A DNA stretch of 50,632 bases, taken from NCBI GenBank assembly GCA_013141155.1, contig JABFRM010000024.1, forward strand, positions 1-50,632. The letters run 5' to 3'. The stretch is from Methylococcaceae bacterium (GTDB lineage: Bacteria > Pseudomonadota > Gammaproteobacteria > Methylococcales > Methylomonadaceae). Position 1 is the first letter of the stretch. Every line of letters starts with the position of its first letter. Made by a program: the position numbers and the translations under genes. This document shows, piece after piece, positions 44,756 to 50,632 of this stretch. A model generated the notes under the pieces. That model saw only the letters and a program-made list of their open reading frames with translations, ran no database searches and was not told the DNA's origin.

Positions 44756-46150
44756 GTGTCTAAAAATAAAAACCCAATAAAAACACCTGTACCACCTATT
44801 CCTACCCCAGTATTCACAACTCAAATTATCAACGGCGTTAGTACGCTAGTTGGCACAGCGAATAACGATACGATGACCGCGCCTGCTGGAGTAATCCCTC
44901 CAAGATTTATTGCTGCGGGCGCTAACGCCTTCTATGCCGTTTCAAATGCTGATGGTGGCGCAGGCGATGACACCATGTACGCATATAACTCAAGCACTTA
45001 TGGTAATGGTTCTACATTGCATGGCAATATTGGCAATGACAAGTTATATGGCAGCAATATGCGCGACGCGCTTCACGGTGGCGACGGCAACGATACCATT
45101 CTCGCTGGCGACGGTAGCGACCTGATTTGGGGTGATGCAGGTAACGATAATATTGATGGCGGCTTAGGCATTGATTTTGCTTATTTCGACAGCGCCACCT
45201 CAGCGGTTACCGTTGACTTAGCTCTGACTACTGCACAAAACACTGGCGGCGCTGGTATTGATACTATCGTGAATGTAGAAGGTTTATTTGGCTCTAACTT
45301 TAATGATGTTTTGCTAGGTGACGCAACAGCCAACACACTTGATGGCGGCGCTGGCAACGACACTTTAGATGGACGTGCTGGCAACGACACTATCAATGGT
45401 GGCGCAGGTGATGACACCATTAGCGGCGGCGATGGTAACGACATCATCAGCGGCGGTGACGGTACAAATACCATTTACGCGGGCGCGGGTGATGATGTCA
45501 TTAACAAAACAACAATTAGCACAACAGACGGTATTTCTAATGACATGATAGATGGTGGTACTGGTACAGACACCTTAGCCATCAACTTGTATTATGGATC
45601 ATCGCTCAATGTTGATTTATCTAAAGGCACGGTAACAGGAAATTCTTGGGGTAATACATTTACGCAAACTGTATCGAATATCGAAAATGTATCCACCAAC
45701 GTAAACAATGCCACTCTAATTGGCAACGATGGCGATAACGTATTAACTGGTGCTTATAGTAGCGTTCTAATAGGTAACGCGGGTAATGACAAGTTAACTG
45801 GCTTCTTCCATGATCAAATGACAGGCGGCACGGGTGCTGATACTTTTGCAACGTACCTAAGTCAGGATACTATTTTAGATTTTTCTGCGGCTGAAGGCGA
45901 CAAAATTGACATAAGCGTATGGGCAGCTTGGGCCAATACCACAAGCAGAGTATGGAACACAGTTATTACGTTCCTTGACAATGGTGCAGCCTTCACTGGC
46001 GTAATAGGCCAAGTACATGTGGTGGCAGACGCGACAGTTCCTGGCTTACAGCATATTGAAGCAGACTTCTACGGTGATAAATCCGTATTTTATTCTACTG
46101 ATGTTTATTCATCTACAACATTAACGGCTAATGATTTTTTCTTTTATTGA
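44756..46150 (+). CDS. RTX-repeat calcium-binding protein, probable type I secretion substrate
   Basis: 464 residues without an N-terminal signal peptide. Glycine/aspartate-rich nonapeptide repeats of the GGxGxDxux type occur in three groups: residues ~70-145 (GGAGDDTMY, GGDGNDTIL), ~195-250 (GGAGNDTLD, GGAGDDTIS, GGDGNDIIS) and ~330-365, the fold that binds Ca2+ as parallel beta-rolls. The C-terminus (STTLTANDFFFY) is hydrophobic and resembles type I secretion signals. No enzymatic domain is seen, so it may be structural or adhesive. No exporter is adjacent. The GTG start has AGGAG eight bases upstream. A terminator follows. Confidence 0.85.
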   Translation: MSKNKNPIKTPVPPIPTPVFTTQIINGVSTLVGTANNDTMTAPAGVIPPRFIAAGANAFYAVSNADGGAGDDTMYAYNSSTYGNGSTLHGNIGNDKLYGSNMRDALHGGDGNDTILAGDGSDLIWGDAGNDNIDGGLGIDFAYFDSATSAVTVDLALTTAQNTGGAGIDTIVNVEGLFGSNFNDVLLGDATANTLDGGAGNDTLDGRAGNDTINGGAGDDTISGGDGNDIISGGDGTNTIYAGAGDDVINKTTISTTDGISNDMIDGGTGTDTLAINLYYGSSLNVDLSKGTVTGNSWGNTFTQTVSNIENVSTNVNNATLIGNDGDNVLTGAYSSVLIGNAGNDKLTGFFHDQMTGGTGADTFATYLSQDTILDFSAAEGDKIDISVWAAWANTTSRVWNTVITFLDNGAAFTGVIGQVHVVADATVPGLQHIEADFYGDKSVFYSTDVYSSTTLTANDFFFY

Positions 46151-46260
46151 TTTAATGTTTTTTGCTTAGCGCGTAGAGTGGAAACGAAACCCATCATGAA
46201 CATAGAGAAGCCGAAATGTTGGGTTTCGGCTATCGCCTCTACCCAACCTACATTTTTCAA

Positions 46261-46803: not shown

Positions 46804-48051
46804 GTGAAAAATAATACCGCTACCGCAACAAAGTCTTTAGATATTGGGCATTTTATCAATCGCTTGCAAACCTTATTTGTGGGGTTGTTAAGGGTATGGT
46901 CTATCCCGATTGTATTGATGTTAAGTCTGGCCTCTGGGTTTACCACTTTTTATGGCTTATCTAATTTCATATTGCCGTGGATTGCTTTGGTTATAACCAT
47001 TGCGATTCAATCCATTATTGTCATTTGTTCCCTCGAATTAGCGGGTATGCACTGGCGAGCTAATCGGCTGCGCTACTTGACGGTGGTGCTATCTTTATTG
47101 GTGGCGTTACTGGCGTCGGTTTCGTTTTCTTATTTCAAATTTTATGAAATATCGGAACAAGACACCTTGCATATCAAAAAGTTAAATCAACTAAAGGGCG
47201 GTATAAAACAGTATGTCGATGATATTTTGGTCATTAAAAATCTGACGTTGGTTGCGCAAAACAAAGTGCTTGAGAAGGCTGCTGAGGAAGTGTCGCAAGC
47301 TTATTTTGGCACTCATCCGCAAGTTGCGCCGGACTTTAAAAATCATGTGGGCGAAGGTCGTTTTTGGCGGCATTATAATCAGCTATATAAAGAAAAAAAA
47401 CATACGTTGGAAAAATTTGAGCAAGATTTTAAAGTCTTGGATACCAGTATTCGTAATGTTCAAGTCAGTTTAAATGAGCTGGATGTTAGTAATAAACCAG
47501 AACAAGCTTACCAAACGTTCATGACGCATTTTCAGGAGGTGCAATCTAAAGTCAATCAATTGCCAAATTTGAGTAACCAACCGCTTCCAAGTGCGCCGTT
47601 GTTGATGACGTATAGCCAATTTGCACAAACGGTAAAGCCCTCTTTTGATATGTGGTCGGGTTTTTCGTTATTTGCCTTTATTTGCGCCGCGATGGTGGAT
47701 TTTTTTACGGTTTTATTGTCTTATCGACTGGAATTTAATGCGCCGGGACCGTTAACCAAAGATGAAGAAAACTTGGTTTTTGAATGTTTGCGAGAGTTTA
47801 CGCAGTTTAAGATTAACGCCAATGATGAATTGCAAATCGTAATTGAAAAAACGCCCTTGGAAAAAGCGCGGCATTATTCGGATTGGTCAAGAATGTTTGC
47901 GGTAGGGTTGCTGTTAAATCGCGGTTTTTTAAGAAAAATTGATGACCGCACCGTGGAATTTTCGCCTAATCTTTATCCGTTGATCTCGGATAAAATGGGT
48001 GAAAAATTACGCCAACGTCAACAAGCCGCCATTAAAACAGTACATTCGTGA
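46804..48051 (+). CDS. Four-helix membrane protein with periplasmic coiled region, unknown function
   Basis: 415 residues. Three helices near the N-terminus (about 31-51, 56-80, 91-113), a ~170-residue polar helical region (about 114-282), a fourth helix (~285-308) and a ~105-residue C-terminal domain with PLTKDEENLVFECLREF and a DRTVEFSPNLYPLIS strand-like end. By helix count the middle and C-terminal regions are on opposite sides of the membrane. No family recognised. The GTG start is the only candidate before the first helix. The next gene begins 7 bases after its stop, so the two are probably an operon. Confidence 0.72.
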   Translation: MKNNTATATKSLDIGHFINRLQTLFVGLLRVWSIPIVLMLSLASGFTTFYGLSNFILPWIALVITIAIQSIIVICSLELAGMHWRANRLRYLTVVLSLLVALLASVSFSYFKFYEISEQDTLHIKKLNQLKGGIKQYVDDILVIKNLTLVAQNKVLEKAAEEVSQAYFGTHPQVAPDFKNHVGEGRFWRHYNQLYKEKKHTLEKFEQDFKVLDTSIRNVQVSLNELDVSNKPEQAYQTFMTHFQEVQSKVNQLPNLSNQPLPSAPLLMTYSQFAQTVKPSFDMWSGFSLFAFICAAMVDFFTVLLSYRLEFNAPGPLTKDEENLVFECLREFTQFKINANDELQIVIEKTPLEKARHYSDWSRMFAVGLLLNRGFLRKIDDRTVEFSPNLYPLISDKMGEKLRQRQQAAIKTVHS

Positions 48052-48057
48052 CGCATT

Positions 48058-49278
48058 ATGAATAATAGTTTAAATACACAACCTATGGCGAATAGCCAAT
48101 ATGGTGATCTTCAGGTCATTGATGAACAATGGGATTCTGGATTTGATGCCGAACGTTGTTTGGTGTTCGCAAAAATAGGTCCTTATCAAAAATTATTTCC
48201 CAGGCCTGAGCAGTTTACACAACGTTTTTATCATACGTTGTTTCCATTGCCAATTGAGCATTGGCAAGTTCAAGATCAAGTTGGGCTATACGATGATTTT
48301 TGTACAATTGCTGTTGAATTAGACATTCGCTTTCAGGCAACTTTTGATTATGTCACCAAAAATGCCGTGGCGCTCGAATATATTAATACTAATATTAAAG
48401 CCGCTTATGATGATTTAGTGCGCAATATTGTTCAGTCTAAGTTGCTTAATTTGGATGATGCCCGTTGGGTGCAAAATGGTTTGTCGTCGGTTGAAAAAGC
48501 CATTGCATTAGCGGTGAGTGAGTTGTTTCTTCTGCATGATTTGCAAGCGATGACGAGTTGTTTGCTTAAACCCACATTTAGAGCATTTCCTGAGCTTAAG
48601 TTTAAAGAAGATGCCGCTTATTTATTGGTGTTGAAAAAAAGTTATGAATTAACCCAGCAAAAACAACAAACGCAATTTTCACATGAACAGCAAATAGAGC
48701 AGCAAAAACAGGAACAAGAAAAAGTTAAGCTGGAAAATTTACAAGCTGCCAATGCGTTAGTGCTGTTAAAGCAGGCGCAAGATGCCGAACATCTTAAAAA
48801 AATGTTGCTTGATCAGGAAATTCAGCAGCTTGAACGCTTTGCCGTGGAGCGACGCTTACACAGTGATAAAGTAAAGCAAGAAACCTTATTAAATGAATTG
48901 TCCTTAAATGGAAAATTTGAACAACTTGAAAAACAAGAGTTTCTTGAAAGACAGTTGGCTGAAAAAACCATTGATGAAAAAATGGCGCATCAACATAAAA
49001 TTAAAGAAAAAGAATTGGCGGCAAAAATTAAATTGTACGATGCCGAAAAGCAGAGTTGGGGTAAGGTCAAAGAGCAATCACAGCAGGATGAATTAAAACA
49101 AAGACAGCGGCAAAAGCAATTGCAGATTAACGCTGAAATTGAAAATAAAGCCTATTTGCATAGACAGCAACTGCTTTTAGAGAATCAGCTCATGCTTGAA
49201 AAGCTCAGGCAAAGTACGAAGTCAACCCCTGAAATGCTTGGGGATACGCTGGCTAAAAATCAATCAGGAGTTAAATGA
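48058..49278 (+). CDS. Soluble SPFH-like / long coiled-coil protein
   Basis: 406 residues. Residues ~15-190 look like an SPFH (band 7/prohibitin) domain: QDQVGLYDDFCTIAVELDIR, RFQATFDYV and NTNIKAAYDDLVRNIVQSKL have the spacing of that fold. No signal peptide or membrane helix. Residues ~195-390 are a Gln/Lys/Glu-rich coiled coil (QKQEQEKVKLENLQAANALV). SPFH proteins usually form membrane-associated rings or scaffolds; here the anchor may come from the membrane protein encoded just upstream. The SPFH assignment is by eye and moderate. It sits one base from the DksA-like gene. Confidence 0.65.
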   Translation: MNNSLNTQPMANSQYGDLQVIDEQWDSGFDAERCLVFAKIGPYQKLFPRPEQFTQRFYHTLFPLPIEHWQVQDQVGLYDDFCTIAVELDIRFQATFDYVTKNAVALEYINTNIKAAYDDLVRNIVQSKLLNLDDARWVQNGLSSVEKAIALAVSELFLLHDLQAMTSCLLKPTFRAFPELKFKEDAAYLLVLKKSYELTQQKQQTQFSHEQQIEQQKQEQEKVKLENLQAANALVLLKQAQDAEHLKKMLLDQEIQQLERFAVERRLHSDKVKQETLLNELSLNGKFEQLEKQEFLERQLAEKTIDEKMAHQHKIKEKELAAKIKLYDAEKQSWGKVKEQSQQDELKQRQRQKQLQINAEIENKAYLHRQQLLLENQLMLEKLRQSTKSTPEMLGDTLAKNQSGVK

Positions 49279-49279
49279 T

Positions 49280-49621
49280 ATGCAGGATGACGAACAATTA
49301 CGCGGTAATTTAATTAAAATGCTTGAGGATTTGAATGTCCGTTTGGGCAAAATTACTCAAGAGGTAAAGCATGTTGATGGCCCGGTTTCACAGGATTTTG
49401 CTGAGCAAGCCGTAGAGAACGAAAATAACGAAGTATTGGATGCAATAGGCACGGCCACGCGTAGCGAAATAGAAAAAATAAAGTTGGCGTTGGTTAGAAT
49501 TGATAAAGGCGAATATGGTATTTGCCAAAGTTGTGGTGAAAAAATCGGCAATGAGCGCCTAGCAGTTGTGCCTTTTTCAAGCCTGTGCATTAAATGTGCG
49601 ACGTTATCGGAAGGGTGTTAG
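49280..49621 (+). CDS. Short DksA/TraR-type zinc-finger protein
   Basis: 113 residues: an N-terminal coiled coil and a C4 zinc finger (C82, C85, C103, C106; C-x2-C-x17-C-x2-C) in GICQSCGEKI and SLCIKCA. The tip element DFAEQA resembles the DxxDxA motif by which DksA acts in the RNA polymerase secondary channel, with Asp and Glu at the acidic positions. AGGAG nine bases before this ATG decides the start; the longer frame overlaps the coiled-coil gene. Shorter than DksA (~150), closer to TraR/DksA2-like proteins. Third gene of an apparent operon. Confidence 0.85.
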   Translation: MQDDEQLRGNLIKMLEDLNVRLGKITQEVKHVDGPVSQDFAEQAVENENNEVLDAIGTATRSEIEKIKLALVRIDKGEYGICQSCGEKIGNERLAVVPFSSLCIKCATLSEGC

Positions 49622-49702: not shown

Positions 49703-49918
49703 TTAATGCAAGGGATATGCAATGTCGAAGCCTTTTATAATACAACCACTTAGTTTTATTATAAAAGGCTCCGACTGGTTATGTTTTGCTTTACGCGTGT
49801 ATTGCCGTTGGTCACGGAAAATTTGTGCCTTATTAAATTTAAACGCATTTTTAGCCACCAGATTAGGGGTATTGAAGCCCTGATCTATTGATTTTTTGGA
49901 TTTAAGTTGTTTAGCCAT
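49703..49918 (-). CDS. Small basic protein (DUF7230-like)
   Basis: 71 residues. NLVAKNAFKFNKAQIFRDQR and KHNQSEPF resemble a family of short basic proteins (NP-VAK-x-FNKA-x-F-x-DRK). The function is unknown. AAGGGG lies six bases upstream of the ATG. The last ~20 codons overlap a large inverted repeat and look unlike the family, so the original gene may have ended earlier or its 3' end may have been altered. Confidence 0.5.
   Translation of the reverse strand: MAKQLKSKKSIDQGFNTPNLVAKNAFKFNKAQIFRDQRQYTRKAKHNQSEPFIIKLSGCIIKGFDIAYPLH
49724..49775. repeat. Long inverted repeat overlapping a small ORF
   Basis: Arms 49724-49741 and 49758-49775 (GTCGAAGCCTTTTATAAT and ATTATAAAAGGCTCCGAC) match at 17 of 18 positions around a 16-base loop. 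It lies inside the 3' end of the small basic-protein gene and may be a terminator-like hairpin or a REP-like insertion. Confidence 0.6.
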
Positions 49919-50005: not shown

Positions 50006-50632
50006 GTGAAATTTAATAAAGAGTTTGATGTTATTGTGATTGGTGGTGGCCATGCCGGAACTGAAGCTGCTTTAGCTTCCGCACGTTCGGGGGCGGCTAC
50101 GCTGTTGCTCACGCAAAATATTGAAACGCTGGGGCAAATGAGTTGCAATCCGGCGATTGGCGGGATTGGCAAAGGGCATTTGGTTAAAGAAATTGATGCC
50201 TTGGGCGGCATCATGGCGCAGGCGATAGATCAAGCGGGTATTCATTTCCGTGTCCTCAATGCCAGCAAAGGGCCTGCCGTAAGAGCCACTCGTGCGCAAG
50301 CGGATCGTTTGTTATATAAGCAAACTATTAGAACAGCGCTGGAAAATCAACCGAATTTATCATTGTTCCAACAAACTGTTGCGGATTTGATTGTCGAAAA
50401 TGACCGCGTCGTGGGTGTTAAAACGCAGATGGGCTTAAGTTTTATGGCCCGCGCGGTGGTATTAACGGCGGGTACATTTTTGGGTGGCAAGATTCACATC
50501 GGCCTGGAAAACTATACCGGTGGGCGCGCAGGTGATCCAGCCTCTATTGCGTTATCACACCGCTTACGGGAACTGCCGCTGCGTGTAGAGCGCTTAAAAA
50601 CCGGTACACCGCCACGTATCAATGGTTTAACC
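50006..50632 (+). CDS. mnmG: tRNA uridine-5-carboxymethylaminomethyl modification enzyme MnmG, 3' end outside window
   Basis: FAD-dependent partner of MnmE in forming the (carboxymethyl)aminomethyl group on wobble uridine 34 of several tRNAs. The N-terminal Rossmann motif [19 protein letters not shown] is followed by [49 protein letters not shown] and [10 protein letters not shown], all invariant MnmG features. The frame runs off the window after 209 codons. Start: GTG at 50006 (MKFNKEFDV); TTG at 49994 is possible. Confidence 0.97.

Follow-up and report, generated by a model that had tools for sequence, protein, structure and literature searches.

The window analysed here, i.e. the whole stretch of 50,632 nucleotides, carries three closely spaced open reading frames on the forward strand: A (46804–48051), B (48058–49278) and C (49280–49621). 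The gaps of 6 and 1 bases between them agree with the initial annotation, in which these genes were regarded as a single unit. The genome has a size of 3.55 Mb in 354 contigs and contains pmoA. As, in addition to pmoA being present, its relatives in the named collection belong to Methylococcales (Methylomonas, Methylobacter, Methylotuvimicrobium and Crenothrix, together with symbionts of mussels, snails and sponges), the host most probably belongs to the type I methanotrophs. In a promoter and terminator scan promoters were no more frequent than expected by chance, and tRNA and Rfam scans of the window found none. An inverted repeat (AGCCGAAA...TTTCGGCT) is located upstream of A at 46209–46231, within a stretch resembling the repeats upstream of C at locus L181. 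An RTX-type calcium-binding repeat protein (HemolysinCabind, E 5e-31) is encoded at 44756–46150 beside valS.

Gene A starts with GTG and encodes a membrane protein of 415 amino acids. Both hydropathy and the predicted model agree with the four helices and the extended polar region read initially from the sequence: there are four hydrophobic segments, the third and fourth of which are separated by a long polar stretch of helices. TM1 (residues 27–52, 46882–46959), TM2 (residues 56–79, 46969–47040) and TM3 (residues 91–114, 47074–47145) are followed by the helical region (residues 115–281, 47146–47646), TM4 (residues 284–310, 47653–47733) and a C-terminal alpha/beta domain (residues 311–400, 47734–48003). 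According to the positive-inside rule, the helical region should be periplasmic and the C-terminal domain cytoplasmic. The former is modelled mostly as helices, with pLDDT of about 80–94 over residues 121–250, and the latter is modelled poorly (pLDDT only about 42–65). The best conserved parts of the protein are the transmembrane segments (0.89, 0.91, 0.82 and 0.89 for TM1 to TM4) and the C-terminal domain (0.88), i.e. about 0.82–0.91 vs 0.63 for the helical region. Residues 311–400 are a candidate docking site for B.

A fold search with the predicted model of A, which is a weak one, gave no significant match. Pfam searches revealed no recognised protease domain in A and, at the level of sequence, no match of the window's A to NfeD at E up to 1. 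Of 70 A proteins, 26 match DUF4407 (PF14362) weakly, with E not exceeding 0.1 and 3.6e-6 at best; the fully read scores of 19.9–26.0 bits are under the cut-off of 31.3. The widest match spans the transmembrane segments and the helical region, and it is possible that the similarity stems from architecture or composition.

The product of gene B (406 amino acids) was initially described as an SPFH domain without its own anchor followed by a coiled coil of about 200 residues, and the predicted structure bears this out. The AlphaFold model (mean pLDDT 82.6) has strands and helices in the SPFH order, forming an SPFH-like domain (residues 30–180, 48145–48597), and then one single helix, the predicted coiled coil (residues 186–386, 48613–49215), for which pLDDT is high to about residue 320 and lower beyond. 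Foldseek with this model gave prohibitin, flotillin, HflK/C and stomatin as the leading matches (best E 1.1e-5, probability 1.00). In a VIA superposition the SPFH part matches stomatin 4fvg with Z 8.6 and rmsd of 3.4 Å over 105 residues. The match to flotillin extends along the SPFH domain and the coiled coil (Z 11.3, 351 residues), its rmsd of 37 Å being due to the long helix. An N-terminal membrane anchor is usual, though not universal, in SPFH proteins; B of the window contains no 19-residue stretch hydrophobic enough for a membrane anchor. B is therefore predicted to be a very divergent flotillin-like relative with the SPFH fold and no anchor of its own.

The SPFH assignment is based on the model, as profile comparison detects no relation of B to the known families. 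None of 70 B members matches Band_7 or Band_7_1 in Pfam, and when B was compared by hhalign with local alignments of Band_7 and Band_7_1, E was 0.23–0.27, i.e. no relation, with the positive control (the two alignments vs each other) at E 1.3e-5. B is recognised by no SPFH sequence profile, although the window's genome has nine ordinary Band_7 matches. Searches of A and B against Pfam, NCBIfam, PHROGs and PADLOC gave nothing above cut-off, and a PDB sequence search with the A and B profiles gave weak coiled-coil matches only. In some distant families the B proteins (L057, L058 and L070) carry a hydrophobic or aromatic-basic tail, which could touch the membrane.

Homologues of A are about 42–68% identical across the order and those of B 23–44%; such identity is far beyond chance and the two open reading frames are real. 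Among 61 related genomes B was found in 44, and A in these same ones. The search with A also matched a forty-fifth genome (G058), weakly and partially (E 3e-4, 89 positions); this genome aside, the sets are exactly identical. A is followed by B at 41 of 41 loci and at the best 80 named loci, where the exceptions are a contig end or a broken A frame. The two frames overlap at 107 of 116 measured loci, which suggests that A and B are translationally coupled. The outer neighbours differ by genus, so it is A–B that forms the conserved unit, and comparison of recurrent neighbours across genera revealed no conserved third partner.

Gene C encodes a DksA/TraR-like protein of 113 amino acids (PF21173, PF01258). 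DksA-like_N (49.2 bits) and zf-dskA_traR (44.0 bits) are both above the Pfam cut-offs, as the initial assignment would predict. Like other DksA-like proteins, C has the DksA-like N-domain and the C4 zinc finger, and it differs from them in being a short paralogue; a second, longer DksA-type gene is present in the same genome. By our reading of the conservation, an acidic D-x-x-E-x-A-like stretch is conserved at the expected coiled-coil tip. Judged by its sequence, C is a gene of the DksA/TraR type, the RNA-polymerase-binding kind, and its product may bind in the secondary channel of the enzyme.

Orthologues of C occur family-wide with about 45–68% identity, in the conserved order C-(DUF7230)-mnmG-rsmG-parA-parB and mostly divergent from moxR-DUF58-transglutaminase genes. 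In the window we confirmed the small DUF7230 protein on the reverse strand (49703–49918), conserved as an antisense gene upstream of mnmG, and the 5' part of mnmG (gidA; 50006–50632, forward strand; PF01134, E 1e-83), the conserved downstream neighbour of C; the remaining genes of this order were named from sequence. The conserved synteny envisaged for the three families holds for A and B and does not extend to C, which is adjacent to A–B in 0 of about 118 other A–B loci (some of which share a genome). At one other locus C is found about 5 kb off on the opposite strand. Co-occurrence in other genomes, by which the initial annotation proposed to judge the unit, is likewise seen for A and B and fails for C: the genus-mates G002 and G003 contain C and lack both A and B. 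The three-gene arrangement was seen in the window's genome only. C is a separate gene of the mnmG locus, directly upstream of which A–B came to lie here; a common transcript of A, B and C is possible in this genome. The case demonstrates that three genes may be mistaken for a unit when their tight spacing is seen in a single genome. In G003 (L166) the C orthologue is preceded on the same strand by genes for an SPFH-like protein of 306 amino acids and an NfeD-like one of 147. An SPFH/NfeD pair is found near the mnmG locus in related genomes, beyond the moxR cluster, and its adjacency to C in G003 therefore fits deletion.

A was found in 189 of 301 sampled Methylococcales genomes. In a class sample of 369 genomes it was found in three only, all of them Methylococcales; it was absent from several hundred sampled genomes outside this order. 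In a phylum sample of 398 genomes B was found only in the window's own genome. A–B, a tightly linked pair that has not been described before, was found in gammaproteobacterial methane eaters alone. As many genomes within the order lack it, its function can be dispensed with or replaced. At Methylomonas loci including L042, L074 and L085, A–B follows the sigma-E envelope-stress cluster rpoE-rseA-rseB-mucD(-cysM), the genes of which were confirmed by Pfam in L042. Methylomonas LW13 (L085) has no cysM ORF, and about 470 bases separate the ORF at the mucD position from A. This arrangement, based on one genus, hints at a link of A–B to envelope stress.

We propose with moderate confidence that A and B together form a membrane scaffold peculiar to Methylococcales, in which A holds a B oligomer on the cytoplasmic face. 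Through the SPFH domain and the long coiled coil, B would assemble into an oligomer shaped as a ring or patch at this face of the membrane. As B has no anchor, it would be held there by the four-span protein A, most likely via the conserved C-terminal domain predicted to be cytoplasmic. With its helical domain, which is putatively periplasmic, A may make contact with components of the envelope or sense them. The binding of A to B, the oligomer and the membrane-organising role are what we infer for this pair; the assembly would organise or protect a membrane patch, stress resistance or membrane organisation being the probable function. The pair would add to the SPFH proteins an order-specific branch with a dedicated four-span partner, invisible to current family profiles.

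Of the systems already studied, the nearest is that of Bacillus subtilis, where membrane localisation of the anchorless SPFH protein YdjI depends on the operon-encoded YdjG and YdjH (PMC8581546). In pspA-ydjGHI, as in A–B, an anchorless SPFH protein is encoded beside integral membrane proteins, but A–B has neither PspA nor a second membrane gene. A membrane partner encoded next to an anchorless SPFH protein is a YdjI-type feature of A–B, which has no linked pspA. B also differs from YdjI, which we take to be a member of PF13421 (Band_7_1), in having no match to this family and in having a long coiled coil. The likeness between A and YdjG/YdjH is one of gene arrangement. The common two-gene form is the SPFH-NfeD operon (PMC13086221). 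The role of A as anchor of a B oligomer is proposed by analogy with these systems. Pairs of this type (QmcA-YbbJ, FloA/FloT with NfeD) resemble A–B as two-gene operons of an SPFH scaffold and its partner. QmcA-type proteins, however, have their own anchor whereas B has none, and NfeD is a small partner whereas A, which has no match to NfeD, contains four transmembrane segments and a large helical region. Flotillins and HflK/C share with B the SPFH domain (predicted in B) followed by a long coiled coil; unlike them, B has no detectable sequence relation to these families and no anchor, and is lineage-restricted.

The initial annotation had also considered a scaffold for internal membranes. According to this explanation B polymers held by A would shape or stack the discs of pMMO-bearing intracytoplasmic membranes in type I methanotrophs. 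It is compatible with the restriction of A–B to a methanotroph order and its retention in methanotrophic symbionts, as well as with its absence from family f7, which may be a non-methanotroph lineage (its pmoA-like matches are divergent, at most 365 bits vs about 380–450). Furthermore, in the Methylotuvimicrobium group g10 five genomes (G012, G860, G888, G916 and G918) have A–B at a distance of about 17–21 kb from pmoA. However, there are many near-complete genomes with full-length pmoA but without A–B (e.g. G001, G003, G016, G024, G028, G806 and G874), which makes this idea weak, and no pmo genes are found among the recurrent neighbours of A–B. We consider it unlikely, and we are still more doubtful that A–B, as an SPFH polymer peculiar to the order and equipped with its own multi-span anchor, is the structural organiser of these membranes. 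In the literature available to us, a search found no work joining SPFH proteins to methanotroph internal membranes. We are aware of no gene to which the construction of the internal membranes housing methane monooxygenase has been assigned, and for studies of membrane organisation in methanotrophs A–B is a concrete candidate, ready for knock-out. Improbable, too, is a cage of the HflK/C kind serving as a chaperone or protease adaptor, in which B would enclose membrane proteins or a protease and A would be the substrate-binding or regulatory subunit. HflC and prohibitin are indeed among the top fold matches of B, and in Methylomonas the pair follows the genes for the MucD protease and sigma-E; but canonical Band_7 genes are present in the sampled genomes as well, no protease gene accompanies the pair consistently from genus to genus, and A has no recognised protease domain.

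Least probable of all is cooperation of the three genes, i.e. the membrane-stress sensor signalling to RNA polymerase that was suggested initially, with A–B sensing the state of the membrane and C relaying it to the enzyme. The short gaps in the window speak for it, as does the presence of an SPFH pair before C, a different one each time, in two members of one genus (the window's genome and G003). The second adjacency is, however, explicable by the deletion mentioned above, and since C stands outside the conserved unit, with its orthologues at the mnmG locus even in genus-mates devoid of A–B, the main basis for such signalling is gone. It is also very unlikely that A–B is a mobile or defence-type pair, i.e. 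an accessory cassette. Patchy distribution and varied neighbours would agree with this, as would the low G+C in the window (0.40 for A and 0.38 for B vs 0.455), the clearest pair deficit among the compared loci. The latter fits a recent transfer of A–B into this genome; alternatively, the pair may have been lost in other members of the genus. Against a cassette stand the lack of a PADLOC match of note, the absence of A from the plasmids, phages and viral contigs searched, and the restriction of the pair to one order with its retention in reduced symbiont genomes. The A and B trees, moreover, largely agree (r 0.91), the window being on a long branch in both. One small symbiont genome (G018) contains two A–B copies (L053 and L054), in which the A proteins score identically and the B proteins have 453 vs 373 amino acids.
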